A program made the position numbers and the translations under genes. From Cyathus striatus (Eukaryota > Basidiomycota > Agaricomycetes > Agaricales > Nidulariaceae), in NCBI GenBank assembly GCA_025738555.1, contig JAOVFP010000009.1:4216001-4280000 (forward strand): 64,000 nucleotides of DNA, given 5' to 3'. The notes under the pieces were generated by a model. That model did not search any database and was not told the origin of the DNA. It saw nothing but the letters and a program-made list of their open reading frames with translations. The stretch's first letter is position 1. The number at the start of each line of letters is the position of its first letter. This document shows positions 12,892 to 64,000 of the stretch, piece by piece.

Positions 12892-12922
12892 TTTAATGAA
12901 AATAATTGGCTGACACTTATGC

Positions 12923-13106
12923 ACACTCAACACTTAGTGTCACACTCAATGCTTAGTGTCACGCTTAATGCATAGTGTCACATTTAATGTATAGTGTCAC
13001 ACTCAACACCTAGTATCACACTCAGCACCTAGTGTCACGCTTATAGTGTCACATTTAACATATAGTGTCACACTCAACACCTAGTGTCATGCTTAATGCA
13101 GAGTGT
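12923..13106. repeat. 19-bp GTGTCAC satellite, outer array, left arm
   Basis: About nine or ten degenerate copies of a 19-bp unit (TAGTGTCACACTCAATGCT and variants such as CACTCAACACCTAGTGTCA). Each unit has short dyad symmetry, CACT ... AGTG. Mirrored at 63797-64000, where one extra 19-bp unit is present. Confidence 0.9.
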
Positions 13107-13354
13107 CACATGCAAGGAAATAAGTATAATAAAATTCTGTACAGATTCTGTACAGAATTTTCAGGTCTGTAATGCAGAATTCCTTGGAATTCTGCATAAT
13201 CCGTACAGAATTTTCGGAATCTGTGAGGAATCTGTACAGACCCAAAAAAACCTCTGCCAAAATGAAAAAAATCTGTGCAGATTCCACATGGATTCCGAAA
13301 ATTCTGTATGGATTCTGCACGGATCTGTACAGAACACATGGCTAAGTGTAAAGA
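13107..13354. repeat. GTAC-rich palindromic module, left arm, outer
   Basis: Dense in TCTGTACAGA, AGAATTCT and GGAATTCC-like short palindromes, running from the satellite edge to a GAGCTC at about 13349-13354. Also present at 26430-26665, with a related inverted block at 28051-28240. Reading frames on both strands are artefacts of the symmetry. Probably one end of a non-autonomous mobile element. Confidence 0.7.
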
Positions 13355-14804
13355 GCTCAAAATGTAACAATTTCTAAAAAATTAAATTAAATCAAGAGTT
13401 CTTCATAATACTTATCACTGCAAGGGAGTGACAATAGATCATGATATATTGTCCCAAAAAAGAGCAAGAAACCTGCATTTTATGCCTATGATTTTGGCCA
13501 GTACACAAAGCTTTTGATTGACATCACAGTGTAGTTCATTCATTAATTAATACCTATTTTGAGTCGATCTAAAATTGAGATGAAATGAACTCAGAAGCAA
13601 GCAGCAAGGCTGATGGCAGGATAAAGGTGGGATGCAGACACACCTTGTTGTATCGCTAATAGGTTGTTATGACTGCCTCATGTATCAGCTTCCCTAGAGA
13701 TGTGAGAATCGGCACCCTTCCTATTTAGTAACCTACAGTAACCTACAGACTACATACATCATGATTTCATTGTAACTACGGCAGATAATATATACATTTT
13801 ACAGTATTGCCTGCTCTTCTTCATGTGGATCTGTGAGAATGAGAGAGTGGGGGTCATCTTGTAGTGCAAGAGAAAGTGGATCCATGGAAAGCAGTGAATT
13901 TAGAGTTCTAAACTGGTTGATGAGTTTGCATGGTCACCTTATGGGTTAGCCAGGAAATAGATAAATCATGTGATCAGTCGGACCTTAAAATTATAGCTGG
14001 CTAAATTCTCTAAATCCTTATGGGAAGTCATCCACTACCTGGTACACACTTATATATATACTTACAGTGGTAGGAAATGATAAATAGCACAACATAGTAA
14101 GGAAATTATTACTTACTGGTTTATGGTGCTTACCTTTATCTTTGATGTGACTTTAACACATTTCTGAAGCTACTTCGTTGGCAACTTCATTATTCTTTAT
14201 ATGTACAGGACACAAGTCTTAGTCAGTGTCCACTGGATCTTGTGCAGTCTGGGCAGATGTTTGTTCTATTCCAGAACCAAGCTCAAGTATTATCCTGACT
14301 ATTCTGGACTTGGTCTACATTTGGTCTATGATTGTTCATGCTACTGCCCACACCCAGCCCTGTCACACCCTAAAAGTAAATTTTCTTTAAGTTTTTCTCT
14401 CTCTGTGGAAGTACCAAGGATGTACTCTACATGATACAACAAAAACTCATGCAAAATGACTGTTCAATGTGAAAAACATATCATGTAGAGTATGGTAAGT
14501 GTAGGACCATCATATCAATGATACCCATCCTGCAATATGTTACCTACAGGAAGAATCCAAAAAGTGAGAGAAGAATGCACAAAATACATGCTCACCGCCG
14601 AGCATGATGATGGAAGAAGTGCGATGCAATTACCATCAATGCATCAGAAGCAAGTGGAGTTATCAGGAATTTGATGGCTGATGTGATGGCACTATTTTTA
14701 CACATCCTTGGTGGCAGGGGTGGGCATGGGAAACAATGAGCTAAGGGATCATGACAACAATGAGCACAATAATAAAGTATGGGTGTTTTGTAATGGAATT
14801 TAAT
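13355..14804. other. No recognised gene (left arm); mirror 62100-63549
   Basis: AT-rich sequence with only short frames and no recognised motif. Around 14580-14740 a block resembles the ATCATGCTCAACAGCAAGCA region of the 5104-6710 element. Confidence 0.4.
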
Positions 14805-16584
14805 GAACTTAAAGTAGGAACTTAACTGGAACTCAACTGGAGCTCAAATGGAACTTGACTCAAATTCAAGTGGAGTTGAGTTGTCATTTACCACTCAAAG
14901 GTAACTCAATGGTAACCCAACTGACACTTGAATTTAGCTTAAGTGAGGAACTCAATGGAACTTAACTTTCACTCAAAAAAATAAGCAAGAAACTCAACTT
15001 TACTCAAGGGAACTTAACTTTTACTTGAAAAATAAGCAAGTTGTATAATGAATACCTTACAATAATTATACAGTAGTTTGTGTTGTTTCCCGCCCCCCCG
15101 CTCGCTGTTTCCCACGCCTATAATTCAATGTTTATTCATTTCCTATTAGTTGCACATTCTCATTGTTGCCCGCACCTCCACTCATAATTTCCCATGCTTC
15201 CGCTATCATTCTGATCTCTACTCATACTATCCTGCACTCTCACTCATGATTTCCCATGCTTCTGTTATTATTCTGCTGTTTACTCCATCCACTTCCTGCT
15301 CAGCATTTCCCATGCTTTCACTTCTTCTCTAATCTGCTTGCAATTTCCTGTGCATTTCATCATTCCCGCCCTCCCGCTCATAGTTTCCCATGACTCCACT
15401 TCTGCTGTTCACTGCTGTCCGCACCCTCACCTAACATTTTCCCACGCTTTCGCTGGTCATTCCGGCCTCTTTTCACTTTTCCATTCTCCCGCCCATATTT
15501 TCCCACACCCCTGCTTTTCACTTCAGATGCTCATTGCTGTCTGCTTCTACTTACCATGCCTTTGCTTCTGTTGTTCACTGCTGTCCGCATCCCCGCTCCA
15601 AATTTCCCACGCTTTCGTTTATCATTTTGACCTTTTTTCATTATCTCCCACCCTCCTACTCATAGTTCCCATGCCTCCGCTCTTACTTTCCCACACAATT
15701 AATACACTTTTCCAGAAAAATAATCTACTGTACAAAGCATGGAACATATTATTATAAAGGACTAAATATATATGTAACTCGCATTTTTTATATGAACTTA
15801 AATTAAGTGATGCAAAAAGATTGAAAGAAAAAGAGCAAGAACTGAGCTAAAAATTTAAGAAAAGACTTGCTCACTATTAAGGATGATGACTAGGAAGCAT
15901 GCTCATCAACAATCCCATGGTGTGTTCATATGTTGATGTTGTGGTGATAAATATTTGAGTTGAGGTAAGTGATGAATAGTACAACACACATGCAAATGTG
16001 TGTAGATAAAGGCAGGCAGTGTGCATGGGAATTGTTGAGCAGAGTTGTAGAAAACATTAGGTGGGTGGAGGTATGGGAACAGAGCAGTAGTTATAGTAGT
16101 GATTAGTGTATACTTACTGTATACTTGAACTTTTGAAATTTGAATATTTGGAACTCAACTTACACCTGATAGAAACTTAATATAACTCGAGGGAACTTGA
16201 CTTTCACAGAAAAAAACTTAGTGAGGAACTTAAGTCCACTCAAAAAACTTAACAGGAGCTCGAAATGTTAGCAGCCTCTCTACTTGACTTAAGGGAACTT
16301 GACTTTCACTCAAAAAACACAAGTGAGTAACTTAACTTGACTCAAAGGAACTCAACTTTCACTCAAAAAAAATAATAAGTGGTGAACTTAAGTTTACTCA
16401 AGGAAACTTGACTTTTCCAAAAAAAAAAAAAGTGAGGAACTTAAGTCCACTCAAAATATAAAAATGGCGACTTGAGGTAACTTAACTTCGACTCGAAAAA
16501 GGTAAGCAAGCTCAAAAGTGGAACTCAACTATAACTTAACTGTAACTCAAAAAACTCAACAGGAACTCGAAATGTTAGCAGCCC
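14805..16584. mobile_element. Repeat-core element, left arm
   Basis: Both flanks (about 14805-15050 and 16130-16584) are arrays of a degenerate GGAACTCAACTTTCACTCAA-type motif. The core (about 15085-15700) repeats TTTCCCACGCNTCCGCT / CCCGCTCATNGTTTCCCA units more than ten times. This layout, iterated short motifs flanking a GTGGGAAA/GCGGGA core, matches the element inserted in the Helitron helicase. Apparent frames in the core (15150-15332, 15338-15757) are repeat by-products. Mirrored at 60321-62099. Confidence 0.6.
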
Positions 16585-19500
16585 ATCATGGGCATTTCTA
16601 AGAGCTGGTAATTTTGCATAATTTAATGTGAACAGTCTGTTGCTCTTGCCATACAAGTTCAGGAACCACAGCTATATTGTGTTCTCATTACCCACAAGTT
16701 TATGTGAAATTGACCACTCTATTATAGCTCATTATGCTCATATTTTTACCTGCTAGCAAAGTAGACAGAAGTCAGGTTGTTAGTTGTTATTGCTATCCCA
16801 CAAGCAACACAAATGCAAATAGTACTTCACTCTCATAGCCACATAGCAGTGGGAAGGGGGCACAATTGAGAGAAAGATTAGGGGTAGAGGATATGTTGCC
16901 AGGTGCTTAGAAGCCATGGAAGACTCATGTGTAGGTAGAGGGCAAGGCTAAGGAAGGTTAGGTGATTCAAAGTATGTATCCTTTGCTTGTGAGTGCACTC
17001 TTCATTATTGTACACTTCTTTTGATTCTTTTCCAGACTTCATAATATTACTTCTTAATACTATATAACCTAACATGTACTATACCTGTAAGTCATGTATC
17101 AACTTTCAGGCCAGTGTATCAATATATATAACAGTTATGTCATTCAAACTGAGTTACAATGATATAACCAAGAGTTAACCAACAGTGTAGTGGGCTTTGC
17201 TGCTTGCTGGCCCTATTCTTTATATAATACCAGGCTTTTGATGGTGTGGTGACCGCATGATGGGTATAGGCTGTGGGGATTACCAATCAGGCATGTCACA
17301 CTCCTGTCATGCAGTCACACACCCTCCAGCATTGACCCAGTAGAATAACTATTGATACATGCTATCTACATCTTTCAAATAAATTGCATATTGGACACTT
17401 ATATATGTTCTTTTATGATATGTAATTGAATTATTTTTTACTCTACTATGATTTCCATAAATTGGCATATAGCACCAACTCCCTGCCAAAATAGGCATCA
17501 AAGCAGTATTTTTGCTTCTTTAATTCAGACTTAAACTATCTGGTACTGCATCATTGGTAACATATGTTCAAAAAAGCAATTATAACAAATGCAGTGACTC
17601 AGAATTTTGAAAAGAAAATCAGAAGTATGTAATCTTGCAGTGAACAGTGCCATATCTCACCTTAAAAGTGCGAAATTAAACATTCAGGCTTAAACATTTT
17701 GTACTCATATGTGAACTGAGTATTATTTGTCATTACAGCTAGGTGAAAAAATGTGATTTAGAGAAACAGATGTAGTTACAAGTTTTGCCCTGCCAAAGAG
17801 CATGGGAAATTACTACAGTGTTCACCTAATAGGTGAGTTAACTTCACCATAGACTACAATTCTCTATTAAATAACAAGTATTATGCATAATATCACAGTA
17901 GATTCAATGAATTGTAACCAGGTCATTTGTAATATGTGTAGATCTTTAGTATAATCATGGTATAATGCAATGATTCTGCGTAAAGAGGCATAAAATCAGT
18001 ATTCCTGCATCTAGTCACCAGCATCTTACTTGTTTGACCAGGTCCCATAATGAAAAACACATAATTAAATACAGAGAATAAAACTATTGACTTATATTGT
18101 CCAGAAAACATTCTTTACATTTGAATCATGCATGTTAGATGGCATTATCTTATGGTATAGGTCACAAAATAAATATTCGGTTTCAACAGTTTCATTCTCC
18201 TGTTTTTACTGAATTATTTTTGTCACTGACACCAGCTGTAATATTGGGATTCTGTGAAGCTACTGAGGATACAATGCCACTCTGCCAAAGAGTGTGTGAA
18301 AATATTATGGAATGGTGTGAGGTGGCACACATAAGATCAATAAGTATCTGTTTAATGTACTTTCATTGACTATACATTCTTAAATCTTATATATACCATT
18401 CTGTAAAGTTTATATGAGAGAAACATGGCAATAAAACAGCCTATTCTCATTATTTTTGTCAACAAGCCATTATTTTAGCAAAATTCTTGTACATCACTGA
18501 GTTTATTGCATATTCCATACTGTATATGATAACTACCTATAATTCATATATTTATATAAGGATAAATGTATCAAATAAGATATATGGAAGGGTTTATAGG
18601 CTTTGAAACAGAGGTGTGATGGATATATGAGCTTTGACTATGATGTGACTCAATAAAGTGTGAAAGAATATACATATATATACCTTAATTAACCTTTTAC
18701 TTCCAACATAAATACTTAAATATAAATAGGACATATATGATAGTATTACAGAACAAAAATAATGAAGAGAAACACCCAAGATTCAACATTACTGTACCAG
18801 TTTTATCTTGGGTCAAGAATTTGGGCGCATGACGTCACACTGTGTGACATCATGCTCAACGCCATATAGGGATTGGTGATCCCCATAGGCTGGGAAGGGG
18901 TGGAGCTATTAGTCTTTTTCCATGGATGGCCCAGTGACATTAACTAAGACTTGTAACAGTGTTTCTCAGCTGTGAGACAACTATCCACAAGGTTCATTTG
19001 CTTGGTCTCTCCATTACTAGAAATATCCAGGAAATTCCCTGTGTATCAACATCTTCAAGTAGAGGCTATTGTTGCCTTTGTTTATAAGTTATAACTTATA
19101 AGTAGTACTCAAGGCCTAAGAAGCATAAGTAACATTACTAAAGTACTTACTACAGACAACAGTTAATCTGATCATGGTGCATATGTAGAATCATACATGA
19201 ATAAAGCCAAAGAAAATTACACATGAATCAAGATTTCTCTTGTTAATGCTGATCAAGTTTCAACACCTGAACTGTTACTATCCCTAACTCTGTCTTTTTC
19301 TTGTTTGTCTGTAGATGAATCATGTTCTGAGAAGCCAGTAAGCAAGGTAATGAAGAGGTAGTATGATAGCAAATGTGAGACCATCACAGTTCAATGTCGA
19401 GATACCAGAGTTTGGATAGGTTAAAAGCATGTTTATTAATATACCTTTGAGATTCAAGTATTCAGAGAGAATTCATAGTTGGTGATAAAGTTATTGCCAT

Positions 19501-21311
19501 ACCCATTAAACTCAAAGCCAGGAATTCCAAGCTCTGAAATTAAGTTGTTGAGACTCATTTCAGTATAATACATACTGGAGTGGAGTTTCAGAATGTTACT
19601 TTACATAGATATTTGATTTGTGGTATGGTAAGTATGGGACTGACACTGCACATGAGTATCTTTTTGCTTTTAATGTGTAAGGAAATGAGGAGTATTGCAT
19701 GTGAAACTAGCAACATGTTCCTGAATGCTATAAGAAAGAACAAACCTCAGGATTACCTTTGAATTCAAGAAGTAGAAAGGAATGAGCTGGAAGTAAATGA
19801 GCTTATTCTTCAGTGTTTTCATTCCCAATATTAGGTATTGCACTTTAGAGTTTTTATTATGAGCATTCAATAAAATACCATCAGCAGGTTGATGTTGAAG
19901 TACTGCATGCAATGATGCTTTTGCTTGGTGCTCAGCCCTAGGCATATAGAATAAGCATGACTAAGCATTAATACTACCAAGTACCAATTGGCTGAGCTTT
20001 TTTTTTTTTTAAAAAAAATCCTGTATTTTATATTTGTGATGGAAGACCATATGTCTTGACAATGTATTGTCTACATAAGGGTAAGGTGAGGTATGGGGTA
20101 AGGGAGTGCAATGTAATAGAGTGTATGGTAGTGCTGGTAGTTATAACATAAACTCAGGATGTCTGCTCAGGGGACAAGACAACAGGAGGGTTGGTCTGGT
20201 GGCAACACTTGTGGGTGAGCGTGCACCATTGGTTGTGGTGTTGTGGCCTGGTGGCCAGTGCAGTATGTTGTTGTTGTGCAGATGTGAGCCAGCTTGTTTT
20301 CAACTGAACATAAAGTAAAGCCTAAAAATTTCCTCCTCCCCATCCTCAACCCAGTGTCACTCCTAATCGTCGCCATCTCATGTTGGACTCCAATGAGGTA
20401 TCACTCCTAATGTTTGTTTGAAGCGGCCAGTAGCATTAACAAAGTCAGCAAGAGCTGTGAGGTTCTCCAGGTCCTTGAGGATCTTGCATAGGGAAATATC
20501 CCTATCTCATTTGGCACATTGTATCAACAGTGGCCTGGATTGATTTGGTTAAGCTTAGGAATGTAGAGCTAAATATTGATGTTTAATACTAGCTTGAAAT
20601 GTTATATTACACATGGATGACAATTGGCTTGGATTGTGTGTAAGCTAACTTTGCTTATGTTCTCTGCACATTTTATTCACTAGCACTGATCCAACGTTTT
20701 CAATTATAGTCAATGTGAGATGTATACATACCTACATATACCTACATTGCTAAGCAATCTAACTACTCATAAGGGTTGTCATTCCACCTCTGAGCTCACA
20801 CCAAATTCATATCCTCACTGATGTCATTCTATTCCTGCCACCCCCATCATCCACCCTCTCCCACCACCCCCATCCCACTGCCGATTGCTATTGCGGTTCT
20901 GGTACAAAATTCATCATCATCATTCCACTGTTCTGCACTCACTCTTTATGTCTGTCAGTGATGTGGGCCTAGTGGTGTTGATGGCATGTGCTCACGGACT
21001 GCAGTGTTGTTGATCAGTTGGCCTCCAAGAAGCTATCCTTCCACACTAGTCACTATGCCCATGCCAACTTCAATATGATGCTCCATTTAATCAAAAAATT
21101 ATACCACTCCAAATGGGTATGAAGTTCCAATAGGGGAAAAACCTGGCGAAGCAAAATTCACTCCCCACTATAACTCCCCCCACTCAGGAAAACCTGTAGT
21201 CACATAGACATTCAGACTTCACAAAGAACTGGTCATAGAGCATTGAGATCTTGCAAGAGCTTACAGCTCACAGAAAGCCAAGGCAGAGGATGCTCAAAAA
21301 CATAGCAGAGT
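16585..21311. other. Long AT-rich stretch without a recognisable gene (left arm); mirror 55591-60320
   Basis: Only short frames. A module with TAGTGGGC ... GCTGGCCCTAT lies at about 17186-17230 and recurs elsewhere in the arm. A possible exon on the minus strand near 19760-19945 reads AEHQAKASLHAVLQHQPADG and ends at a GTAATC donor-like site; its family is unknown to me. A T13/A8 homopolymer at about 19998-20018 differs in length between arms. Confidence 0.4.
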
Positions 21312-23291
21312 CGCTAAAAGAACCTAGGACCAGAGAAAAACCCACTCTCAGCCCCACTCACCTTGGACCCATTAACACTATCACTATCCTCACCACTCCT
21401 CACATCCCTCATAATTGAGCCCTTCCCCTCCCCTCAGCCTCCAACTCATCCCTCTCAGCACTCAAACTCAGGTCCACCTCTTCTTCCTCACTTCCAGCTG
21501 GAAGAGGCTGCAATGAAAGTGTTATCATCAGCCCTGAATTCAATGATGCAGACATCACCAAGTTGCCCCATTGCAACTGTGATGATAACCCTGAGCTTTG
21601 TGGGAGTGGGGAGGTCTGTAAAGGTGTGTGATTAGGTGGGAGATGTTGGAATTGGAAAGATGGCACTCATTAATATTGTTGCTGGCAAAGTTGAGGAGGA
21701 GACCACTGCACTTGTGTTTGTGGTGCATACACACCTGCACAGAGCCCAAACCTTGTTTGTCTTGGGCTGGTGGGTGATAATGGGGTAATCTGCAAAGGCA
21801 CTCAAGCCTGAGGGTGGAATAAATTTGGCTGAATGGGAGATTGCTGGAATAGATCACATTCCTGCTGTTGCTGTTGCCCATGCTGGGATGGAGGAGACGG
21901 CTGAGGGTTCATTGCATGTCAAAAATCATACTCAAACTACATCCAACAATCAACACTATAAACCAAGCTGATAAAGAATGAAAAACATACAATAACAAAA
22001 TCCTCTTCTTACCCACATCCTTATCAATGCAGTAACATATGTACAGCATATCAATCCTATCCACCTTAATCAGCACTCATCCATAATATCACACTAAAAA
22101 AATCAACTCATGTATCCTCCACAAGCCCGACACAAAATTCCCCACAAGCACAGTAATGCCCCCCACAAGCAGCACAGCTCCAAGAGCCTGATTCGGTGCA
22201 TCAAGCATATGCACAACAAAGAGATATGTCAACAATGCAAAAGAAACAGTAATCATCAAAGGTGCAATCATAGGCAGCAATATCAGAGCTATCCAAATTT
22301 ATCATCATCATCAGTACAATGTACTTCATGAAAAAGAACAAAAGAGAAAACAAGATCACAAGTGCCCTCAGCCTCCATGGCAAATCCCAAAACTGATCCC
22401 CAGTAATACCAACATAAACCAGCACATAAGCACTCATGATGTCCATTACACGCTCAATATATGCCAATCCATCTAACACCCATCATAGCAAACAGAATCA
22501 GGTGAAGTAAAAAGGGCATAAAGGGCATATAAGGCAAGAGATGTTTCATCACAATTGGTACACATTGAATGAGGAATGTCAGTAGAGCAAGAAGATGGAG
22601 AAGGGTGAGTATAAGCAAAGAGAGGGCTATACCCCCCAATGATGGACACATGGAACACGTTAATGCATTCATGATGATATGGGTCAAGGATATAATTGGT
22701 GGGGGTGCATTTTGACTTTTATGAATAACTTTATTAGTAAAAGTATAAAAATAAAGAAGAGGAAAGAAGATGCACTCAACAAAGTACCAACTGCCAACAA
22801 TGCCAGCAGCAGTGACTCTCAAGGTGCCCCTTGCAACACCGCAGCACCAAAGCCACATGCCCACCACACCAACAATGGCCCAATCAGCCCACTGGTGAAG
22901 CCTCCACTCTGTTCTGGAGGGACTGCCATACTTGTAACCTACCAATAGTAATTGGTATGCTTAGCAGAAGGGAAATGATAAGGAGGAGAGGGGAGAGGGG
23001 GAGGATGTAGAGTTAGTATATTGTCAAGATGTGCATTGTGAGTGTTAGTGTTCCACTTGTGAGGTGGATGCGTTTAGGAGGATAAGCAGTTGTGCAAGTG
23101 TTTGGATGTTGTTGGATATGGCTAGGATTTGGAAATGCCATGGTTTGGTCATCTGTGTGTGTGGGCATCAATCAAGTAAGTCAAACAACTTGAGGTCATC
23201 TATCATAGTTTGAGTAGGAGTTCAGGCACTTGTTAGCAGAACAATGAGCAGCAAGATGAATAGATAGTTCAGCAGGAAGGAGAGGGTAAGA
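21312..23291 (-). pseudogene. CTL/Pns1-like choline-transporter-family gene, left-arm copy
   Basis: This is the mirror of 53611-55590, where the domain description is given. The same blocks are present on the minus strand: HQWADWAIVGVVG, VARGTLRVTAAGIVGSWYF, SLGGIALSLLILTLL, AYIERVMD...YVLVYVGITGDQFW, DAPNQALGAVLLVGGITVLVG and LYICYCIDKDVGKKR. The serine/glutamate-rich C-terminal frame is broken here: the G-run near 21428 is one base shorter than in the right arm, which shifts EAEGRGKG... to a premature stop. The CTC at about 21466 versus AAA-type sequence in the right arm also changes a residue. Confidence 0.65.
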
Positions 23292-25140
23292 AACTAATAT
23301 ATAATGATAGGATAATAGAACATACTATATTATGGAGGTGAATTGGTTTTGCTCCTGTATGGAGGGTGGTGGGCAGTGTGAGGGTTTGTGTATGAGGATG
23401 ATAGAGTGCCATGCTGATATGCCTAGTAAAATATAAGGGTTATTTTTCGAAATATAATAGACATCTGATGCTAGTAATACAGTTAGCAAATCAAGTCCAA
23501 GAGTCCAAGAGTTGGGGCAAGTCCCGAGCCGCCAGCTAAAGTATTCTACATGAGTACACTATCAAGGGAGGAGTCCAAGGGCTGGGGTTGAGTCCCGCAC
23601 TGCCAGTCAAAGTATCACCTCTGATATGAATCAAGGGATTCGACATAACAATATATTTGGGCAGCTTGATGATTCCTACATCCATTACAATGTACTAGAT
23701 AACTATATAATAAAGAAAAGAACCTAAAGATAATACTCTGGAATGTATTAGTACTTCTCTGTACCCAGAATAACACACCCAGTACTAAGTTAGACACTCA
23801 CATGACTTCAGGGAAATACTTCAGAATATAGAACTCTTAGTACCACTGGTCCCACCAGATACTGACACTCATAGCTATCATGCAGTCTCTTGAATAACCA
23901 GGAGCACCCATATGTCTCTTTGTGTAAAACTGCCACCATGCGGGAAACCATATGCCCCCAGGACTTTGAAACATGTGCAGAATACTACCCATGGCACATT
24001 GGGTGGTGCCATCAGATACACCATTACTGGAAACACTGGTATCTGTTATATCTGAGTACTTGGCCAGAATTAGCACATGTATTAGCATGTGTCTTGATGC
24101 ATGCCTATTAATAGCATGGCATGGCACTTAATGCATCTCTGAAACTGAATGTGCCCTCATGAATTCTTGTATGGAGGGGTAGAAATACCTCTTTGACCAT
24201 TAGGATGCACTAGGACATTATGATGTACTATTTACCTTACCTATACCATCGTGCATGAGACCACTGCCATGTAATTAAATATATAAGTAGTTAGACATAC
24301 CTTTAGAATACCTTAAGCACCACACCGGCTGTACTTCCATTCTTGCAGTAGAGTATGTTCTGAATTGATATTGAAATTCAGTATAAATCTGAAATCTGAA
24401 AGTCTGTTCTGAAAGTATCTGAAAGCAATCGCACTATCTACTATTAAATACATTGTTCATTTTATTATACTTGAAACTCTTATGCCCTCAAACTAAATAT
24501 AAATCTAACTTGGAATATATGTTCTTTGTTGGTGGTGTTAATACTATGTAAATAAACATTCTCTAAAAGTTAGTCTTATCAATGCCCACACAATTTGCAA
24601 TCAGGCGAATGAGCACAGTAATTACAGAGTACCAGGAAGACATGAAAGATATAGAAAACAGGGTGATGTTAATGAAAAGGGGATGAATGAATGAGCGGGA
24701 AAGTTAGCAGTGAAGATGAAAATGAGAAGATGATGACATGGGGTGAAATGACTTGAGACAAGTGAAATTTGTCAGCAGTCACAAGGCTCCAGCCAATCCA
24801 GTTGAGATCCCATTCATGAGCCTGTAAATTACCTTATAGGGAAATCCAGATGTCCCTATAACCCAACTGCCTTAAAAGGTAGTAGGAATAAAGATATAGG
24901 GCTGGCATGTGGCATAGCCCACTACCTCACAATAGTGTCATTGGTTGCTGCTGATACATTGAATTAGAGGGAAGGAACACAAGATATATCATTACAATAC
25001 TTATATGACATAGGGTAGAATTATGAATATGATAGGAGAAAATTTAATAACAATTTTAGAGTGATATAGTTGGAGTAAAAAGAAGAAATCGCAATATTGA
25101 TAAGTAGTGATGTACATGCTGGAAAATTAAAAGTAATAAT
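23292..25140. other. No recognised gene; contains a SINE-like double unit (left arm); mirror 51759-53610
   Basis: AT-rich, with the two-unit SINE-like repeat at 23497-23650 and the GTGGGC/TGCCAC module at about 24893-24930. A protein-like minus-strand frame at 23837-24127 (SPGGIWFPAWWQFYTKRH) is overlapped by an equally long plus-strand frame and cannot be assigned. Confidence 0.4.
23497..23650 (+). repeat. SINE-like double unit, left arm
   Basis: Two tandem copies of a roughly 75-bp unit, each containing GGGGTTGAGTCCCGCACTGCC or a close variant that resembles a tRNA B box (GGTTCGANTCC). A second pair lies at 30040-30200. No full tRNA cloverleaf could be drawn, so this is at most a tRNA-derived repeat. 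Confidence 0.4.
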
Positions 25141-25812
25141 TTAAACCTTCTTTTGTTTATCTTCAGTATTGCAAGCATTGCAGCCCTTTTTGGAGGGAGG
25201 TTCAACATCTGATGTGGTTTGAGAGGTGCTAGCTCCAGGGGTGGTGGTGGTTTGAGCTGGTTTCTGTGGTATGAAAGGCATAAAATGTTGGATTGGTTGA
25301 ACAGGTGCAGATGAGGGAGGATTATTTGTAGTGGAGTTGTTAGGAGTAAGGGTTGGCATGTTAACCAGCAGGTCAGAGGTGCCATAATGCGCAGGTTTTT
25401 TATTTGAAGTTGAAAAACCTGTCATAGATGAGAAAGTACTACTTAAATGTGATTGAAAAAAAACCTTTTTGTTTGGATTGGGCATCCAAATCCAAATGGG
25501 AGAATCAATAGTGACTAGAGTGCCCTCACTTAAATCAGAGTAAATGTTGTTGGGATGGATAATATTGTTCTTTGCATCATGATATGGTAATTCAATTAGT
25601 TTGTTTTTTCGCAGCTGTATGTTGTTGTTGGCATAGTTAGGGAGAAGGCTTGGTTCTCAAAAACCTTTAGGTAGTTGAACTATATTGAGGTGAGGTAGTA
25701 AAGGATTTGTTGGTAGAACAAAAAGGGAAGCTAACCCGTATTTTTAGTGGCAGTGGATGCCATTGCTGCCTCTATGGCATTATCATCCATTTCTAGAAGG
25801 TTCCTTTTCATT
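25141..25812 (-). pseudogene. Basidiomycete transposon-associated ORF, unknown function, left arm
   Basis: On the minus strand an ORF begins MKRNLLEMDDNAIEAAMAS. It shifts frame near 25735, continues GLASLFVLPTNPLLPHLNIV, has a stop after QLPKGF, and then runs on as NNIQLRKNKLIELPYHDA, HPNNIYSDLSEGTLVTIDSP and a Ser/Thr/Pro-rich tail ending in KKGCNACNTEDKQKKV. It resembles hypothetical proteins I associate with repetitive DNA in mushroom genomes, but I cannot name a domain. A repeat element abuts its start codon. Mirrored at 51087-51758. Confidence 0.45.
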
Positions 25813-26429
25813 GGGGCTTACAAGAATTCCAGTTGACAACAATTTTGTTCAAGTGAGTTCGAGTTGCATTTGAGTTGCACTCAAGTGACAATTCAAGTAA
25901 CAATTCAAATCACATTCAAGTTATTAAAAAAAATAAGTCTGTAAAGGTAAGTGTCTAATAAATACTTATACTCTACATTACTATCACAGTCTCCCCACTG
26001 TCCCGCCTCCCGCCTGCTTTTTCCTTCAACATTCTGCCTTGTTCAAATTTTCACATGCTTCTTTTCGCCCCCATCCACGTTTGCAACTGCTGTTATTGAC
26101 ATCCATCAATGCCATCAAACTCACTTCCTCAACACCGCTGCACATAATTGATGGGTGATCTGTTGATGGGCACCCTTCCTCATTATCATGCTCAGACATC
26201 AATTAAGCAACACAATAATTAAGTGGAGCATGGGAAACAATGAGCGGGAAGATTATCATGCAGCACATTGATAAGCGGAGGCGTGGGAAACAATGAGTGG
26301 GAGGGCAGATGAGAGTGAAGTACACAAGAAGTACAATTAAATTTATTGACATAAAATTGAGTGAGTTAAGCTAGTATATTTGAGTGACAATCAAGTTACA
26401 TTCAAGTGAAAATTCAAGTGAAGGTTGAG
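25812..26429. mobile_element. Shortened copy of the Helitron-interrupting element, left arm
   Basis: Positions 25812-26194 match 5102-5494 (starting TTGGGGCTTACAAGAATTCC). Positions about 26190-26429 match about 6045-6285. The roughly 550 bp between are missing, and the right end is cut off by the GTAC-rich module at 26430. It is therefore an internally deleted and truncated family member. Confidence 0.7.
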
Positions 26430-26665: not shown

Positions 26666-26671
26666 ATGTGA

Positions 26672-27377
26672 CACTCTGCATTAAGCATGACACTAGGTGT
26701 TGAGTGTGATACTAGGTGTTGAGTGTGACACTATACATTAAATGTGACACTATACATTAAATGTGACACTATGCATTAAGCATGACACTAGGTGTTGAGT
26801 GTGACACTAAGCATTGAGTGTGACACTAAATGTTGAGTGTGACACTATACATTAAACATGACACTATGCATTAAGTGTGACACTAAGCATTGAGTGTGAC
26901 ACTAAGCATTGAGTGTGACACTAAGCATTGAGTGTGACACTAAGCATTGAGTGTGACACTAAGCATTGAGTGTGACACTAAGCATTGAGTGTGACACTAA
27001 GCATTGAGTGTGACACTAAGCATTGAGTGTGACACTAAGCATTGAGTGTGACACTAAGCATTGAGTGTGACACTAAGCATTGAGTGTGACGAAGCGTGAC
27101 ACTAAACATTGAGTGTGACACTATACATTAAACATGACACTATGCATTAAGTGTGACACTAAGCATTGAGTGTGATACTATGCATTAAGCGTGACACTAT
27201 GCATTAAGTGTGACACTATACATTAAGCATGACACTAAGTATTGAGTGTGACACTATGCATTAAGCATAACACTAAGTGATGAGTGTGACACTATACATT
27301 AAGCATAACACTAAGCATTAAGTGTGATACTATGCATTGAAAATGATACTATATATTGAGTGTATCATGGATTTTGT
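26672..27377. repeat. 19-bp GTGTCAC satellite, inner array, left arm
   Basis: About 37 units of 19 bp (CACTAAGCATTGAGTGTGA). Eleven nearly identical units lie at 26881-27090, with degenerate units on both sides. The right-arm array (49504-50228) has twelve in the homogeneous block. Confidence 0.93.
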
Positions 27378-27382
27378 ATAGT

Positions 27383-28045
27383 TGTCATATCCCGTATCGC
27401 CTACCTCCGGACTCCTATGCTTTACTCTGCCTTTTCCTTTGCTTACTCCGAACCTTGCTTACGCTCTTAGTATTACATACTGATTACTGTACATAGATTA
27501 CTCTTGTTTCCTTTCTTCCGTTCTACTGAGCTATCCCCTCAGTAATGTAGTATACATCTCATAGTGAGTCACTTATCATTCTTAAGTGCGCCACTATCTG
27601 TTTTACTTTACACCGCCATACGCACTCACTTCTCCGACGCGTTTTATTATGTTTAATTAGTTATAGTCTTCATTCTACGTACGCCTACCCTGACCGTACT
27701 TCTCCGCTAGCCTTGGCCAGCGGCCTTTACTTACTCCGAGTCTCCAGTATTTAAGTAGTACTCGATTTGTACTTTAGTCTTCAGTTTCGTATTGAACTAC
27801 GTCCTCACCCTTTCGTCTGACTTGAGTTACATCTCTCGTCCTCCGTCTCTCGTCTTCTCCGAAGGGCTTGCCCTTACTCCGAAATCCAGGACCGGGAATC
27901 CCAGGGGCGCAGCACATAAGCTGAAGCCGAAGTCCTACCCCCTGAGTTATTGTTCTCCGCTTTCGTCTTACACTCACCCCTCGCTTCTCCGCAGTCACTC
28001 TCTCGTACTCCGCCGCCAAGTCAGGCTAGGGGCACGGTCGTGACA
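27383..28045. mobile_element. Solo LTR, 663 bp, TSD ATAGT, left arm
   Basis: Starts TGTCATATCCC and ends GGTCGTGACA, the TGTCA...TGACA ends typical of Ty3/gypsy-type LTRs. It is flanked by a perfect five-base duplication ATAGT (27378-27382 and 28046-28050). It is clearly richer in GC than its surroundings and contains no retroviral-type ORF. The target was the 19-bp satellite; ATAGTGTGACA continues on the far side. Mirrored at 48838-49498. Confidence 0.88.
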
Positions 28046-28050
28046 ATAGT

Positions 28051-28240
28051 GTGACAAGGCAGCAATGCATAAATCCACACAGAATCCATGCAGAATATGT
28101 ATGGAATCCATATAGAATAATCACCTCTAATAATAATAATAGCTACTATATAAATTCTGTATGGTATCTGTACAGGTCTGTACAGGTCTGTATGGATCCG
28201 CATGGAATCTGCACAGATCCATACAGATCCATACAGACCT
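28051..28240. repeat. GTAC-rich palindromic module, inverted partner, left arm
   Basis: Repeats CTGTACAGGTCTGTATGGATCC-like sequence in shorter form, with ATCTGCACAGATCCATACAG. With 26430-26665 it brackets the satellite and solo LTR, so 26430-28240 may be one composite element. Confidence 0.55.
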
Positions 28241-31072
28241 CTTGGGGGAGTGCAAATTACTGTTCAATATCCACCTCCCCACATCCTGCAGCCTTATCAG
28301 CAATTTGTTCTGCATCATTTTCTTCACCACAATGAGCAATATCTCTCATTTAATCCAGCCATGTTTCATAACTATGCTCTCCAGGCCAATGGGCCCATCA
28401 TTCACAACCTTTGTGGCCCAGAATTGAACCATGTCTATGTGCAGGATGGGTGAAGAGACATAGCAGCAGTTGGGACACTGCAATGCAGTAGTACAGTGGA
28501 GAGCAGTGGGGCAACCAAGATCCAGTGGTTTGGCTGTGGATCTGGCAATGATGGCCATATAACTCCGATGTATACTAACAAAATTTTAAGTCTATATCAA
28601 TATGAAAAGCACTGTAAAATAAGACTTTTGTGAATTGTAATCAAATCCATGCTGACAATCAATGTGTCAAAGTTCAATTGCTTTGTCATATGTGATTGAG
28701 GGGCTTGAGACTGTACAGGTGTGCAAGATGCAAGTTCATTGCTAATTCACATGTTAAAACTTGAGTATTGCAACCGCTATTGCTTTGTAATACAAGTTGT
28801 AGACTTTAGGGAAGAGCACAGGTATACATAACCCATATGGTGTTTATTCTACTAGCATAGTTACTGTGCATCTAACTTCATTCCTGTGGTCCTCCTTTTG
28901 TTTCTGTGCTTACATCATTGTTTATGCACTCCTATCTTCATCTCTTTGAATATTTCTTTGTTTGTGTGCTCATTTTTCTCTGTGGTGCTACATTTATTTC
29001 TGTGTTTTGACCTATGTCTCTGTGCTCATGTCATTGTCTCTAAACTTCTAGCTTTGTATCCATATTTCTCCTTTTGTCTCTGTACTTATACTATTGCTAC
29101 CCCAGAGATAATAAAATTTTCATTCCTGTACAATATTACATACCTTCCCATCCTCCAATCCTCTTTGGATTTTCAGACACATTGAGAACTCACTCATCTA
29201 AATGAATGTGTATTTATTTCGAGGATATTTGAGGAATATCATCTTGAGGATGCCTCCCAGTCACAGGGACTCCTAAATCCTGGGTGTTTATAATTGAGTA
29301 ATGGGCATGTCACAGCTGCTGAATTAAAGGTCTGCCAGTGCCTGCCAAGATCTTTTGTTATGTGTCACTCACAAGTCACTTAGGCAATGCTCAAGTTACT
29401 CAGGTTGCTCAGGGCTTTATTTTGGTGTGTTCAGGTGGAGCTTGAAATAATCATGCTTGTCATGCTTCAAACCAGATAGCTAGCATCATAATTGTTTTTC
29501 AAATGTGTTGTCAAGGTCCATACAATGTACCTACGAGAAAATTGTATCTGTATGTGCATACAATCTGGCCCAATCTGGCTTCCAATCTGGCTCTTTCTCA
29601 GATTTCATGCAATTTTGTCATCATTTTACATGTAGCTACCACATTTCATCGTGTATTCCACTATAAGTTGAGAATAATAATGTTAACATACTGCCTGAAT
29701 TTCGTGCCAAGTTTCATAGTGATCCGCATAGAATTGCATCTGTAATTCCATTTTTATAATCACTCAGGGATTTATAATCTCTGGGGTAGCAATAGTACTT
29801 ATCACTGTTTCTACACTCTTACCTTCATCTTTATGCTTATTTTCTATCTGTGTACTTATTTCTTTATCTCTTTGCATATACTTCTATTTCTGTTCTTTCA
29901 CTTTTGTCTACCATTTTCTGTAATTGTGTATGATGTGTTTAATACCTGATTTATGCATTATTAGTAATATATAGTGATACACCTTAAAATATTTAATGGT
30001 TAAATCTCTTTATTTGTCATATAATATTAGAACTCAGTATTAGTAATGCACATCATGAGTACAAGGGTTGGGGTGAGTCCCGAGCTGCCAATCAAAGTAT
30101 TCTATTTTGAATACATTACTAAGGGATTGGGACATCTGAGAGCTGGAGTTGAGTCCTGCACTGCCAGCAGAAATATCTATTTGATATATACTAAAGGAAT
30201 AATACAAGATGTGTGTTATTTAATTACTCAAGTCCAAAAGACTATGTACATGCACCCAGTACTTGATTGTTAGCTAAGGGAACACATTCCACATGTTCCT
30301 GTCACATGATCAAACACAAGGCATTAGAGCTGTTATCTCCGAACTGGTTACTGTGGTAGTTGCAGCCCAGGGCAAGTCATGTGACTTTGTACTTGTACTC
30401 TGAAATTATCCCACTGTTTGATTGTTGGAAACAACATTATGTCATCATATAAAGTAGTCTAGAGTAGTTCCTTTCCATATATAGGTACTGTACAGTTTTA
30501 TTTGTAACAGATATATAAGAAGGACAGGGAGGAGGAGGAAAAGCAAGCACCCCAGAGAAATCCTAGGTTCCTTCCACTCTAGGAGTGTAATACATTGGAA
30601 TAGAAATGAAACTGAACAGTATTTGAACTGAGTAATTTCATATTAGAGAAGTTTTGAATCTATTGTTTACTTCCTTTATACTAGTTTATACATAATCTGT
30701 GTTATCTCTCCCTTGAACTTACAGCCTGTGGTTTGCGATGATTATTTGAGTATTACAATATATATTAGTTCTATTTAAATACAAATCACAAATTCAGCAC
30801 ATCAATAGCTTTCTTCCTGTTCTGCTTCACAATAACACTACAAGCTTAATAATAATACAATTAGCTTTGACACATTGACACCAGCTTTGTTCCAATAATC
30901 CTAGCATTTAAAATAACTAGTCTACTTGATTCTAATAGTTGAAAACTTGAAATATTCAAATTGGATTTAAATATGAAGAACCTGTGGGTTCATGGGTAAG
31001 GGTTCAGACAGGTATGGGTGTGGGTCATCATCAAAACACCCACAGGTTACCCATGCACTTCCCTATATAATA
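28241..31072. other. Mostly non-coding (left arm); mirror 45811-48642
   Basis: A Gln/His/Pro-rich frame at 28241-28453 (PYQQFVLHHFLHHNEQYL) looks protein-like but is short and unidentified. A SINE-like double unit lies at 30040-30200. Around 30990-31050 GGGTAAGGGTT and GGTATGGGTGTGGGT-type sequence occurs. No other feature recognised. Confidence 0.35.
30040..30200 (+). repeat. SINE-like double unit, second locus, left arm
   Basis: Two units resembling 23497-23650, with GGGGTGAGTCCCGAGCTGCC and GAGTTGAGTCCTGCACTGCC. Confidence 0.4.
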
Positions 31073-45810: not shown

Positions 45811-48642
45811 TATTATATAGGGAAGTGCATGGGTAACCTGTGGGTGTTTTGATGATGACCCACACCCATACCTGTCTGAACCCTTACCCATGAACCCACA
45901 GGTTCTTCATATTTAAATCCAATTTGAATATTTCAAGTTTTCAACTATTAGAATCAAGTAGACTAGTTATTTTAAATGCTAGGATTATTGGAACAAAGCT
46001 GGTGTCAATGTGTCAAAGCTAATTGTATTATTATTAAGCTTGTAGTGTTATTGTGAAGCAGAACAGGAAGAAAGCTATTGATGTGCTGAATTTGTGATTT
46101 GTATTTAAATAGAACTAATATATATTGTAATACTCAAATAATCATCGCAAACCACAGGCTGTAAGTTCAAGGGAGAGATAACACAGATTATGTATAAACT
46201 AGTATAAAGGAAGTAAACAATAGATTCAAAACTTCTCTAATATGAAATTACTCAGTTCAAATACTGTTCAGTTTCATTTCTATTCCAATGTATTACACTC
46301 CTAGAGTGGAAGGAACCTAGGATTTCTCTGGGGTGCTTGCTTTTCCTCCTCCTCCCTGTCCTTCTTATATATCTGTTACAAATAAAACTGTACAGTACCT
46401 ATATATGGAAAGGAACTACTCTAGACTACTTTATATGATGACATAATGTTGTTTCCAACAATCAAACAGTGGGATAATTTCAGAGTACAAGTACAAAGTC
46501 ACATGACTTGCCCTGGGCTGCAACTACCACAGTAACCAGTTCGGAGATAACAGCTCTAATGCCTTGTGTTTGATCATGTGACAGGAACATGTGGAATGTG
46601 TTCCCTTAGCTAACAATCAAGTACTGGGTGCATGTACATAGTCTTTTGGACTTGAGTAATTAAATAACACACATCTTGTATTATTCCTTTAGTATATATC
46701 AAATAGATATTTCTGCTGGCAGTGCAGGACTCAACTCCAGCTCTCAGATGTCCCAATCCCTTAGTAATGTATTCAAAATAGAATACTTTGATTGGCAGCT
46801 CGGGACTCACCCCAACCCTTGTACTCATGATGTGCATTACTAATACTGAGTTCTAATATTATATGACAAATAAAGAGATTTAACCATTAAATATTTTAAG
46901 GTGTATCACTATATATTACTAATAATGCATAAATCAGGTATTAAACACATCATACACAATTACAGAAAATGGTAGACAAAAGTGAAAGAACAGAAATAGA
47001 AGTATATGCAAAGAGATAAAGAAATAAGTACACAGATAGAAAATAAGCATAAAGATGAAGGTAAGAGTGTAGAAACAGTGATAAGTACTATTGCTACCCC
47101 AGAGATTATAAATCCCTGAGTGATTATAAAAATGGAATTACAGATGCAATTCTATGCGGATCACTATGAAACTTGGCACGAAATTCAGGCAGTATGTTAA
47201 CATTATTATTCTCAACTTATAGTGGAATACACGATGAAATGTGGTAGCTACATGTAAAATGATGACAAAATTGCATGAAATCTGAGAAAGAGCCAGATTG
47301 GAAGCCAGATTGGGCCAGATTGTATGCACATACAGATACAATTTTCTCGTAGGTACATTGTATGGACCTTGACAACACATTTGAAAAACAATTATGATGC
47401 TAGCTATCTGGTTTGAAGCATGACAAGCATGATTATTTCAAGCTCCACCTGAACACACCAAAATAAAGCCCTGAGCAACCTGAGTAACTTGAGCATTGCC
47501 TAAGTGACTTGTGAGTGACACATAACAAAAGATCTTGGCAGGCACTGGCAGACCTTTAATTCAGCAGCTGTGACATGCCCATTACTCAATTATAAACACC
47601 CAGGATTTAGGAGTCCCTGTGACTGGGAGGCATCCTCAAGATGATATTCCTCAAATATCCTCGAAATAAATACACATTCATTTAGATGAGTGAGTTCTCA
47701 ATGTGTCTGAAAATCCAAAGAGGATTGGAGGATGGGAAGGTATGTAATATTGTACAGGAATGAAAATTTTATTATCTCTGGGGTAGCAATAGTATAAGTA
47801 CAGAGACAAAAGGAGAAATATGGATACAAAGCTAGAAGTTTAGAGACAATGACATGAGCACAGAGACATAGGTCAAAACACAGAAATAAATGTAGCACCA
47901 CAGAGAAAAATGAGCACACAAACAAAGAAATATTCAAAGAGATGAAGATAGGAGTGCATAAACAATGATGTAAGCACAGAAACAAAAGGAGGACCACAGG
48001 AATGAAGTTAGATGCACAGTAACTATGCTAGTAGAATAAACACCATATGGGTTATGTATACCTGTGCTCTTCCCTAAAGTCTACAACTTGTATTACAAAG
48101 CAATAGCGGTTGCAATACTCAAGTTTTAACATGTGAATTAGCAATGAACTTGCATCTTGCACACCTGTACAGTCTCAAGCCCCTCAATCACATATGACAA
48201 AGCAATTGAACTTTGACACATTGATTGTCAGCATGGATTTGATTACAATTCACAAAAGTCTTATTTTACAGTGCTTTTCATATTGATATAGACTTAAAAT
48301 TTTGTTAGTATACATCGGAGTTATATGGCCATCATTGCCAGATCCACAGCCAAACCACTGGATCTTGGTTGCCCCACTGCTCTCCACTGTACTACTGCAT
48401 TGCAGTGTCCCAACTGCTGCTATGTCTCTTCACCCATCCTGCACATAGACATGGTTCAATTCTGGGCCACAAAGGTTGTGAATGATGGGCCCATTGGCCT
48501 GGAGAGCATAGTTATGAAACATGGCTGGATTAAATGAGAGATATTGCTCATTGTGGTGAAGAAAATGATGCAGAACAAATTGCTGATAAGGCTGCAGGAT
48601 GTGGGGAGGTGGATATTGAACAGTAATTTGCACTCCCCCAAG
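45811..48642. other. Mostly non-coding (right arm)
   Basis: Mirror of 28241-31072; contains the SINE-like pair at about 46683-46843. Confidence 0.35.
46683..46843 (-). repeat. SINE-like double unit, right arm
   Basis: Mirror of 30040-30200. Confidence 0.4.
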
Positions 48643-48832
48643 AGGTCTGTATGGATCTGTATGGATCTGTGCAGATTCCATGCGGATCCATACAGACCTG
48701 TACAGACCTGTACAGATACCATACAGAATTTATATAGTAGCTATTATTATTATTAGAGGTGATTATTCTATATGGATTCCATACATATTCTGCATGGATT
48801 CTGTGTGGATTTATGCATTGCTGCCTTGTCAC
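48643..48832. repeat. GTAC-rich module next to the solo LTR, right arm
   Basis: Mirror of 28051-28240. Confidence 0.55.
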
Positions 48833-48837
48833 ACTAT

Positions 48838-49498
48838 TGTCACGACCGTGCCCCTAGCCTGACTTGGCGGCGGAGTACGAGAGAGTGACTGCGGAGAAGC
48901 GAGGGTGAGTGTAAGACGAAAGCGGAGAACAATAACTCAGGGGTAGGACTTCGGCTTCAGCTTATGTGCTGCGCCCCTGGGATTCCCGGTCCTGGATTTC
49001 GGAGTAAGGGCAAGCCCTTCGGAGAAGACGAGAGACGGAGGACGAGAGATGTAACTCAAGTCAGACGAAAGGGTGAGGACGTAGTTCAATACGAAACTGA
49101 AGACTAAAGTACAAATCGAGTACTACTTAAATACTGGAGACTCGGAGTAAGTAAAGGCCGCTGGCCAAGGCTAGCGGAGAAGTACGGTCAGGGTAGGCGT
49201 ACGTAGAATGAAGACTATAACTAATTAAACATAATAAAACGCGTCGGAGAAGTGAGTGCGTATGGCGGTGTAAAGTAAAACAGATAGTGGCGCACTTAAG
49301 AATGATAAGTGACTCACTATGAGATGTATACTACATTACTGAGGGGATAGCTCAGTAGAACGGAAGAAAGGAAACAAGAGTAATCTATGTACAGTAATCA
49401 GTATGTAATACTAAGAGCGTAAGCAAGGTTCGGAGTAAGCAAAGGAAAAGGCAGAGTAAAGCATAGGAGTCCGGAGGTAGGCGATACGGGATATGACA
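48838..49498. mobile_element. Solo LTR, 661 bp, right arm
   Basis: Mirror of 27383-28045, two bases shorter. Flanked by ACTAT on both sides (48833-48837 and 49499-49503), the reverse complement of the ATAGT duplication in the left arm. Confidence 0.88.
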
Positions 49499-49503
49499 AC
49501 TAT

Positions 49504-50228
49504 ACAAAATCCATGATACACTCAATATATAGTATCATTTTCAATGCATAGTATCACACTTAATGCTTAGTGTTATGCTTAATGTATAGTGTCACACTCA
49601 TCACTTAGTGTTATGCTTAATGCATAGTGTCACACTCAATACTTAGTGTCATGCTTAATGTATAGTGTCACACTTAATGCATAGTGTCACGCTTAATGCA
49701 TAGTATCACACTCAATGCTTAGTGTCACACTTAATGCATAGTGTCATGTTTAATGTATAGTGTCACACTCAATGTTTAGTGTCACGCTTCGTCACACTCA
49801 ATGCTTAGTGTCACACTCAATGCTTAGTGTCACACTCAATGCTTAGTGTCACACTCAATGCTTAGTGTCACACTCAATGCTTAGTGTCACACTCAATGCT
49901 TAGTGTCACACTCAATGCTTAGTGTCACACTCAATGCTTAGTGTCACACTCAATGCTTAGTGTCACACTCAATGCTTAGTGTCACACTCAATGCTTAGTG
50001 TCACACTCAATGCTTAGTGTCACACTTAATGCATAGTGTCATGTTTAATGTATAGTGTCACACTCAACATTTAGTGTCACACTCAATGCTTAGTGTCACA
50101 CTCAACACCTAGTGTCATGCTTAATGCATAGTGTCACATTTAATGTATAGTGTCACATTTAATGTATAGTGTCACACTCAACACCTAGTATCACACTCAA
50201 CACCTAGTGTCATGCTTAATGCAGAGTG
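49504..50228. repeat. 19-bp GTGTCAC satellite, inner array, right arm
   Basis: Mirror of 26672-27377 with one more 19-bp unit: twelve homogeneous units at about 49793-50020 against eleven in the left arm. Confidence 0.93.
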
Positions 50229-50233
50229 TCACA

Positions 50234-51085: not shown

Positions 51086-51086
51086 A

Positions 51087-62099: not shown

Positions 62100-63549
62100 A
62101 TTAAATTCCATTACAAAACACCCATACTTTATTATTGTGCTCATTGTTGTCATGATCCCTTAGCTCATTGTTTCCCATGCCCACCCCTGCCACCAAGGAT
62201 GTGTAAAAATAGTGCCATCACATCAGCCATCAAATTCCTGATAACTCCACTTGCTTCTGATGCATTGATGGTAATTGCATCGCACTTCTTCCATCATCAT
62301 GCTCGGCGGTGAGCATGTATTTTGTGCATTCTTCTCTCACTTTTTGGATTCTTCCTGTAGGTAACATATTGCAGGATGGGTATCATTGATATGATGGTCC
62401 TACACTTACCATACTCTACATGATATGTTTTTCACATTGAACAGTCATTTTGCATGAGTTTTTGTTGTATCATGTAGAGTACATCCTTGGTACTTCCACA
62501 GAGAGAGAAAAACTTAAAGAAAATTTACTTTTAGGGTGTGACAGGGCTGGGTGTGGGCAGTAGCATGAACAATCATAGACCAAATGTAGACCAAGTCCAG
62601 AATAGTCAGGATAATACTTGAGCTTGGTTCTGGAATAGAACAAACATCTGCCCAGACTGCACAAGATCCAGTGGACACTGACTAAGACTTGTGTCCTGTA
62701 CATATAAAGAATAATGAAGTTGCCAACGAAGTAGCTTCAGAAATGTGTTAAAGTCACATCAAAGATAAAGGTAAGCACCATAAACCAGTAAGTAATAATT
62801 TCCTTACTATGTTGTGCTATTTATCATTTCCTACCACTGTAAGTATATATATAAGTGTGTACCAGGTAGTGGATGACTTCCCATAAGGATTTAGAGAATT
62901 TAGCCAGCTATAATTTTAAGGTCCGACTGATCACATGATTTATCTATTTCCTGGCTAACCCATAAGGTGACCATGCAAACTCATCAACCAGTTTAGAACT
63001 CTAAATTCACTGCTTTCCATGGATCCACTTTCTCTTGCACTACAAGATGACCCCCACTCTCTCATTCTCACAGATCCACATGAAGAAGAGCAGGCAATAC
63101 TGTAAAATGTATATATTATCTGCCGTAGTTACAATGAAATCATGATGTATGTAGTCTGTAGGTTACTGTAGGTTACTAAATAGGAAGGGTGCCGATTCTC
63201 ACATCTCTAGGGAAGCTGATACATGAGGCAGTCATAACAACCTATTAGCGATACAACAAGGTGTGTCTGCATCCCACCTTTATCCTGCCATCAGCCTTGC
63301 TGCTTGCTTCTGAGTTCATTTCATCTCAATTTTAGATCGACTCAAAATAGGTATTAATTAATGAATGAACTACACTGTGATGTCAATCAAAAGCTTTGTG
63401 TACTGGCCAAAATCATAGGCATAAAATGCAGGTTTCTTGCTCTTTTTTGGGACAATATATCATGATCTATTGTCACTCCCTTGCAGTGATAAGTATTATG
63501 AAGAACTCTTGATTTAATTTAATTTTTTAGAAATTGTTACATTTTGAGC
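62100..63549. other. No recognised gene (right arm)
   Basis: Mirror of 13355-14804. Confidence 0.4.
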
Positions 63550-63796
63550 TCTTTACACTTAGCCATGTGTTCTGTACAGATCCGTGCAGAATCCATACAG
63601 AATTTTCGGAATCCATGTGGAATCTGCACAGATTTTTTTTCATTTTGGCAGAGGTTTTTTTGGGTCTGTACAGATTCCTCACAGATTCGAAAATTCTGTA
63701 CGGATTATGCAGAATTCCAAGGAATTCTGCATTACAGACCTGAAAATTCTGTACAGAATCTGTACAGAATTTTATTATACTTATTTCCTTGCATGT
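63550..63796. repeat. GTAC-rich palindromic module, right arm, outer
   Basis: Mirror of 13107-13354. One G is missing in CAGATTCGAAAATTC near 63688 relative to the left arm. Confidence 0.7.
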
Positions 63797-64000
63797 GACA
63801 CTCTGCATTAAGCATGACACTAGGTGTTGAGTGTGACACTATATGTTAAATGTGACACTATAAGCGTGACACTAGGTGCTGAGTGTGATACTAGGTGTTG
63901 AGTGTGACACTAGGTGTTGAGTGTGACACTATACATTAAATGTGACACTATGCATTAAGCGTGACACTAAGCATTGAGTGTGACACTAAGTGTTGAGTGT
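63797..64000. repeat. 19-bp GTGTCAC satellite, outer array, right arm (continues past window)
   Basis: Mirror of 12923-13106 with one extra 19-bp unit. It is still matching the left arm at the last base of the window. Confidence 0.9.

Follow-up and report, generated by a model that had tools for sequence, protein, structure and literature searches.

How did one 26-kb stretch of DNA come to stand twice on the same contig, in opposite orientation, around a spacer of about 1 kb? We address this question for a palindrome in a 64,000-nucleotide window from Cyathus striatus (assembly GCA_025738555.1, contig JAOVFP010000009.1, forward-strand positions 4,216,001 to 4,280,000); positions count from the first letter of this window, and negative ones lie to its left. 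The original prediction, made from the letters of the window, had offered a recent inverted duplication, a dimerised chromosome end or an assembly error. The first of these is the best supported by our analysis: the locus is probably a recent inverted segmental duplication, in which a 26-kb repeat-rich stretch was copied by fold-back or strand switch and then joined to a different sequence.

Anatomy and position of the palindrome

Self-BLAST of the 64-kb window aligned 12913-37909 with 63993-38978 in inverted orientation (99.73% over ~25,030 columns). With the window extended along the same contig by 30 kb on the left and 60 kb on the right (154 kb in total), the match grew to 12228-37909 versus 64695-38978 (99.69%, 25,731 columns, 17 mismatches, 23 gap openings), and reading through a minisatellite of unequal length carried the homology to 11887 and 64784. 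Such a self-comparison past 64000 had been called for in the original prediction; it places the outer end of the right arm 784 bp beyond the window, which holds 38978-64000 of this arm. The predicted palindrome of at least 51 kb, with arms of about 25 kb and a 1.07-kb spacer, was confirmed and is slightly larger, while its proposed start at 12923 lay about 1 kb too far in. The parts are given below, where J1 denotes the left inner join (37909/37910), J2 the right outer join (64784/64785) and X the sequence to the right of J2.

11887-37909, plus strand, 26,023 bp: left arm (A); outer join ancestral, inner join (J1) apparently new
37910-38977, no strand assigned, 1,068 bp: spacer (S); 3' part of a transposase gene (minus strand) and a plus-strand fragment at 38014-38223
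38978-64784, minus strand, 25,807 bp: right arm, the reverse complement of A; inner join ancestral, outer join (J2) new

The overall order is the left flank continuing into A, then S continuing into reverse A, then X, so that the two ancestral joins lie diagonally. A rough formula gives ~15 bp as the chance expectation for the longest exact inverted match within 64 kb; with arms of ~26 kb, the palindrome is therefore not a chance match. No second inverted match of at least 700 bp was found by megablast in the 154 kb.

The palindrome is interior to a contig (C9) of 4,878,748 bases, and the sequences beyond its two ends differ, the 42 kb examined on the left and the 60 kb on the right having only scattered repeats in common. 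Both observations bear on the idea of a dimerised chromosome end. An isochromosome-like fusion would account for the inverted symmetry around a small spacer, but the nearer contig end is 598 kb away, the flanks are unlike, and the 154 kb contain no pair of adjacent exact TTAGGG or CCCTAA units. On these three grounds we rejected a dimerised end, which we regard as extremely improbable.

Polarity of the four joins

The direction of change at each join was read from related sequences elsewhere in the 107.45-Mb assembly (24 contigs), with each search scoring the best ~40 candidates. Both inner joins fall within a PIF/Harbinger-like transposase gene, present as two truncated heads and one tail:

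38839-39396, minus strand: N-terminal part of the transposase, stop-free from the right arm into the spacer
37491-37909, plus strand: left-arm copy of this gene, truncated by J1 immediately ahead of the DGT motif

We take this motif to hold the first catalytic aspartate. The right inner join (38977/38978) is crossed by six of the 45 matching rows outside the locus (C1 twice, C3, C4, C10 and C17; 71-80% identical; 48 rows were listed, three of them the locus itself), and protein order is kept through the join in three of four fetched relatives, the fourth ending before it. Since element copies cross this join, the frame is open and the proteins of the relatives are continuous, it is ancestral. 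At J1, by contrast, none of the 45 outside rows crosses, and one row from C4 reaches the join from the arm side and stops there. The spacer is thus continuous with the right arm and interrupted at the left arm (6/45 versus 0/45 rows), and J1 appears to be a new join that cuts the transposase gene.

The minus strand of the spacer carries the 3' part of this gene, including the open reading frame (ORF) 38289-38639. The transposase of the spacer and right arm is split over two ORFs, neither of which gives a Pfam match at E 0.01, and DDE_Tnp_4 was detected in three of four homologous proteins scanned. Elements of the PIF/Harbinger type typically carry terminal inverted repeats and are flanked by 3-bp target-site duplications. 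Organism names accompany 14 of the 120 listed relatives, among them Sphagnurus, Lactifluus, Tricholoma, Laccaria, Cyathus, Russula and Mycena; presumably all 14 come from mushroom-forming fungi (Agaricomycetes), and none of these proteins is a near-identical match. The spacer itself is single-copy: 38000-38400 has one full-length match, and 37910-38977 has no second copy among the matches listed, where its only relatives are the 71-80% matches to the transposase part. Its plus-strand fragment 38014-38223 matches part of an ORF ~1.8 kb from the C4 copy of the element (L002), and the N-terminal rest of that ORF, a low-complexity query, has no match in X. These findings hint, as weak evidence, that X is not the original neighbour of the spacer.

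The outer joins both lie in repeats. The left one is inside a dispersed repeat that we call R:

11705-11973, plus strand: one inverted end of repeat R, with the other end at 10533-10799; the palindrome edge at 11887 lies inside R

A query of 11600-11990 returned 41 rows, one of them self and some representing two ends of one element. The left outer join (11886/11887) is crossed by 37 of the 40 non-self rows, each of which reaches 58 bases or more into the arm (best 40 of 254 candidates); of the other three, two stop 2 and 20 bases past the join and one begins beyond it. Because the join lies within R and is crossed by R copies elsewhere, it is ancestral. J2 was crossed by none of the 64 rows outside the locus (66 were listed, two being the locus itself). 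On its X side lies a second repeat, D, and all three D copies that were fetched run past the point at which X is cut, with common sequence that X lacks. J2 is thus a new join, at which two repeats, R and D, are fused through their interiors. The possibility that J2 sits exactly at the terminus of a small repeat D was rejected, as the three other copies extend past the cut point.

The two inverted ends of repeat R are separated by about 1 kb, and next to one of them is an 18-bp minisatellite. Paired inverted R ends also occur at several further loci, for example at C18:1776586-1776870 and 1777675-1778064. We take this structure to be reminiscent of foldback-type elements.

Copy number, content and divergence of the arms

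Queries of 13400-26400 and 27400-37909 were dominated by common repeats, and the arms themselves fell outside the best 38 of 2110 and the best 38 of 1729 candidates, respectively. As common repeats filled these two larger searches, copy number was read from two smaller pieces. An 8.6-kb piece (28300-36900) has two full-length matches in the assembly, which are the two arms, and 57 of its 59 rows are partial (best 40 of 1087 candidates); likewise, the two full-length matches of a 4.4-kb piece (18950-23380) are the arms, with 47 of 49 rows partial (best 40 of 126). In the flanks, the queries were 3.8 kb on the left (6700-10500) and 9 kb of X (L007:1-9000), and for either one the matches listed include a single full-length one. 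Within the sampled pieces, the doubling is confined to the arms.

In content, the arms are mosaics, built from pieces of many dispersed repeats that are scattered separately through the assembly; for a ~650-bp repeat at 27400-28048, 38 of the 40 rows listed match at 89-99%. No intact gene was recognised by Pfam in the 16 ORFs scanned, out of 40 uninterrupted ORFs of at least 90 amino acids listed for 12200-39000. The sole match among the 16 was to PF04515, a choline-transporter-like fragment in the ORF 22454-22960 (minus strand). A scan with the bacterial code found no tRNA in the window, and no Rfam family reached its gathering score there. We saw no sign of function in the palindrome, which most likely represents a mutational event in repeat-rich DNA.

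These data also bear on the possibility that the whole 53 kb is a single transposable element with giant terminal inverted repeats, as might be suggested by inner joins in a transposase gene and an outer edge in a repeat with inverted ends of its own. Against this, full-length matches of the two arm pieces sampled are confined to this locus, the component repeats are scattered separately, and the outer edges cut into R on the left and D on the right instead of coinciding with element ends. We rejected such an element, which is very improbable and, as the matches listed include no further full copy, already largely refuted.

For the comparison of the arms we used a core of 25,550 bp (12360-37909), in which they differ by eight mismatched bases and 23 insertions or deletions (indels). 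Eighteen of the indels involve one or two bases within single-base runs (run lengths 2 to ~16); the other five comprise two single units of 19-bp minisatellites and three small events of other kinds. Of the mismatches, two (12366 and 12424) lie in the repeat adjoining the outer minisatellite array, three (16432, 16433 and 20011) border long A or T runs, and three (17361, 21467 and 21468) fall within two small compound changes. The longest stretch without any difference measures 6,989 bp, and raw substitution divergence is ~3 in 10,000. The arms thus seem to be young or to have been kept alike by conversion. The minisatellites differ in length between the arms as follows:

11964-12358, no strand assigned: 18-bp minisatellite at the outer edge, ~21 copies; right-arm counterpart L006:556-707, ~7-8 copies
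12922-13110, no strand assigned: 19-bp minisatellite, one unit fewer than the right-arm copy
26667-27363, no strand assigned: second 19-bp minisatellite, one unit fewer than the right-arm copy at 49541-50233

L006 is the piece of DNA directly to the right of the window, in which the right arm ends at L006:784; the outer array is longer in the left arm by ~14 units. Minisatellites of 19 bp recur in the arms (12922-13110, 26667-27363, 49541-50233 and 63815-64000), and by eye their unit resembles sequence beside repeat D in the other copies of D.

The pattern of differences raises the question of an assembly artefact, in which one true A, or one per nucleus of a dikaryon, was placed twice through false joins at J1 and J2. 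The arm differences are chiefly homopolymer indels (the 18 of 23) and hardly substitutions; in an 8-kb stretch of the right arm (41265-48943), six G or C runs are each one base short of their left-arm partners (27938-35621), as uneven consensus quality would give; and J1 and J2 both lie within repeats. The six shortened runs may reflect a poorer consensus in the right arm, and the dominance of homopolymer differences resembles consensus error, so that the true divergence of the arms may be lower than measured. As to the reality of the palindrome, the homopolymer differences leave it undecided. An artefact would, however, require two false joins, or one plus a structural difference between nuclei, because the flanks are unlike. 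Nor would a single locus read twice be expected to differ by ~14 units in the outer array and by one unit in each of two further arrays, and among the matches listed neither arm piece is present at full length a third time on any contig. A simpler version, a single chimeric fold-back read, was rejected, as it would leave the palindrome bordered by the left flank at either end, which the unlike flanks contradict. Taken together, we judge an artefact to be rather unlikely.

Two features lie in the flanks. In the left flank, -180 to 3452 contains Helitron remains, with a Helitron_like_N domain in the ORF 1139-1786 and long open frames on either side. In the right flank, 74470-75825 (L007) is a tandem array of units of roughly 130 bp, to which sequences far out on the left side, around -16,400 to -15,900 and -6,100 to -5,900, are similar. 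Within the arms, the choline-transporter-like gene fragment mentioned above lies in 21200-23380; it is present in both arms and has related stretches on C5 and C1.

Origin of the palindrome

Two new joins together with a single-copy spacer of 1 kb fit an inverted duplication by fold-back or strand switch, followed by acquisition of a new flank. In this explanation, which we consider probable, DNA synthesis along the segment would have changed over to the opposite strand at a distance of about 1 kb, whether a broken end folded back or the switch took place at a stalled fork; the segment would then have been copied backwards and the product joined to the different sequence X. The spacer would correspond to the fold-back loop or the jump distance and would for this reason be single-copy. 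By the fold-back route, a broken end would be replicated to a dicentric containing S, which would then break on its original side and be joined to X; an alternative route of the same kind would consist of two strand switches by a fork. The switch itself is inferred, as is the breakage or second switch that made J2, the new join through which the inverted copy passes at its outer end into a different sequence. A fold-back or strand switch would typically leave inverted microhomology of 2-8 bp where the spacer meets the inverted copy. That the event was recent is suggested by the low arm divergence (eight mismatched bases in 25,550).

Several points weigh against a recent duplication of this kind. 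The palindrome is known from the sequence of one assembly, and the homopolymer pattern of the indels is also given by consensus errors. The novelty of J1 derives from few informative rows, with one outside row touching the join. Because R and D are unlike families, J2 is not a simple homologous recombination between like repeats; and because the 9 kb of X sampled shows no second copy among the matches listed, capture by copying from elsewhere is unsupported there.

The same order could also arise in more steps. An inverted copy of A may have been inserted beside the original, after which recombination between the arms flipped the spacer; the arms could then be older and homogenised by conversion. 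Long near-identical inverted arms do recombine, and a single flip of the spacer would likewise leave the ancestral joins in diagonal position (left outer and right inner). Arm-to-arm gene conversion in palindromes is stated in PMC6790999. This origin takes one step more, while a fold-back or switch yields the observed order without a flip, and we regard it as unlikely; of the three possible routes, fold-back and double switch need the fewest steps. A further reading takes the flip to be recurrent: arm recombination would invert the spacer, the two truncated gene heads would alternately own the single transposase tail, and conversion would keep the arms alike. We hold such an invertible locus to be quite improbable.

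The preferred reading, an inverted duplication by fold-back or strand switch, has counterparts in other organisms. In human fold-back rearrangements, spacers at 21 sequenced junctions range from 766 to 70,466 bp (median 3,428), and inverted microhomology was present at 13 of the 18 junctions outside homologous repeats (PMC3907307). As in the human cases with a disomic spacer, inverted copies surround a short single-copy spacer, whose 1,068 bp fall within this range, and the inverted copy terminates at a join to other sequence. In contrast, the human duplications span several megabases and have terminal deletions (rows of Table 1 in PMC3907307), whereas here the arms measure 26 kb and are contig-interior. 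In Saccharomyces cerevisiae, inverted duplications that arise via a dicentric have their outer ends at dispersed repeats, with capture of other sequence (PMC10622511). As in these foldback inversions, dispersed repeats mark the far end of the palindrome, where a different sequence follows; the second joins in yeast, however, are mostly made through homologous repeats (delta elements, PAU genes), and J2 joins unlike repeats.

Strand switching also yields inverted copies in the inverted triplications ascribed to origin-dependent inverted-repeat amplification (ODIRA), but the first product proposed there is a triplication, and two copies are present here (PMC10766186). The original prediction considered palindromes of this kind to be rare in eukaryotic nuclear genomes, which is only partly fair, as mammalian sex chromosomes consist in substantial part of large palindromes (PMC6790999). 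Those palindromes are similarly long inverted repeats, but they are often gene-bearing with documented conversion, whereas no intact gene was recognised among the ORFs scanned here. For fungi, including basidiomycetes, a search for palindromes or inverted duplications by title and start of abstract found nothing on nuclear palindromes within a limited literature collection.

For annotation, the locus carries a warning: its duplicated repeat content should be counted as one event and not as independent insertions. Most likely, the palindrome reveals no new function or genetic system and represents a known kind of rearrangement. If the invertible-locus reading were true, it would be a standing invertible locus in a nuclear genome that is probably fungal. 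If present in native DNA, the structure is a young inverted duplication with two junctions, for which repeat copies of the same genome give the polarity of the joins. It would thereby be a natural example, in a repeat-rich genome, of a rearrangement described from human patients and yeast.

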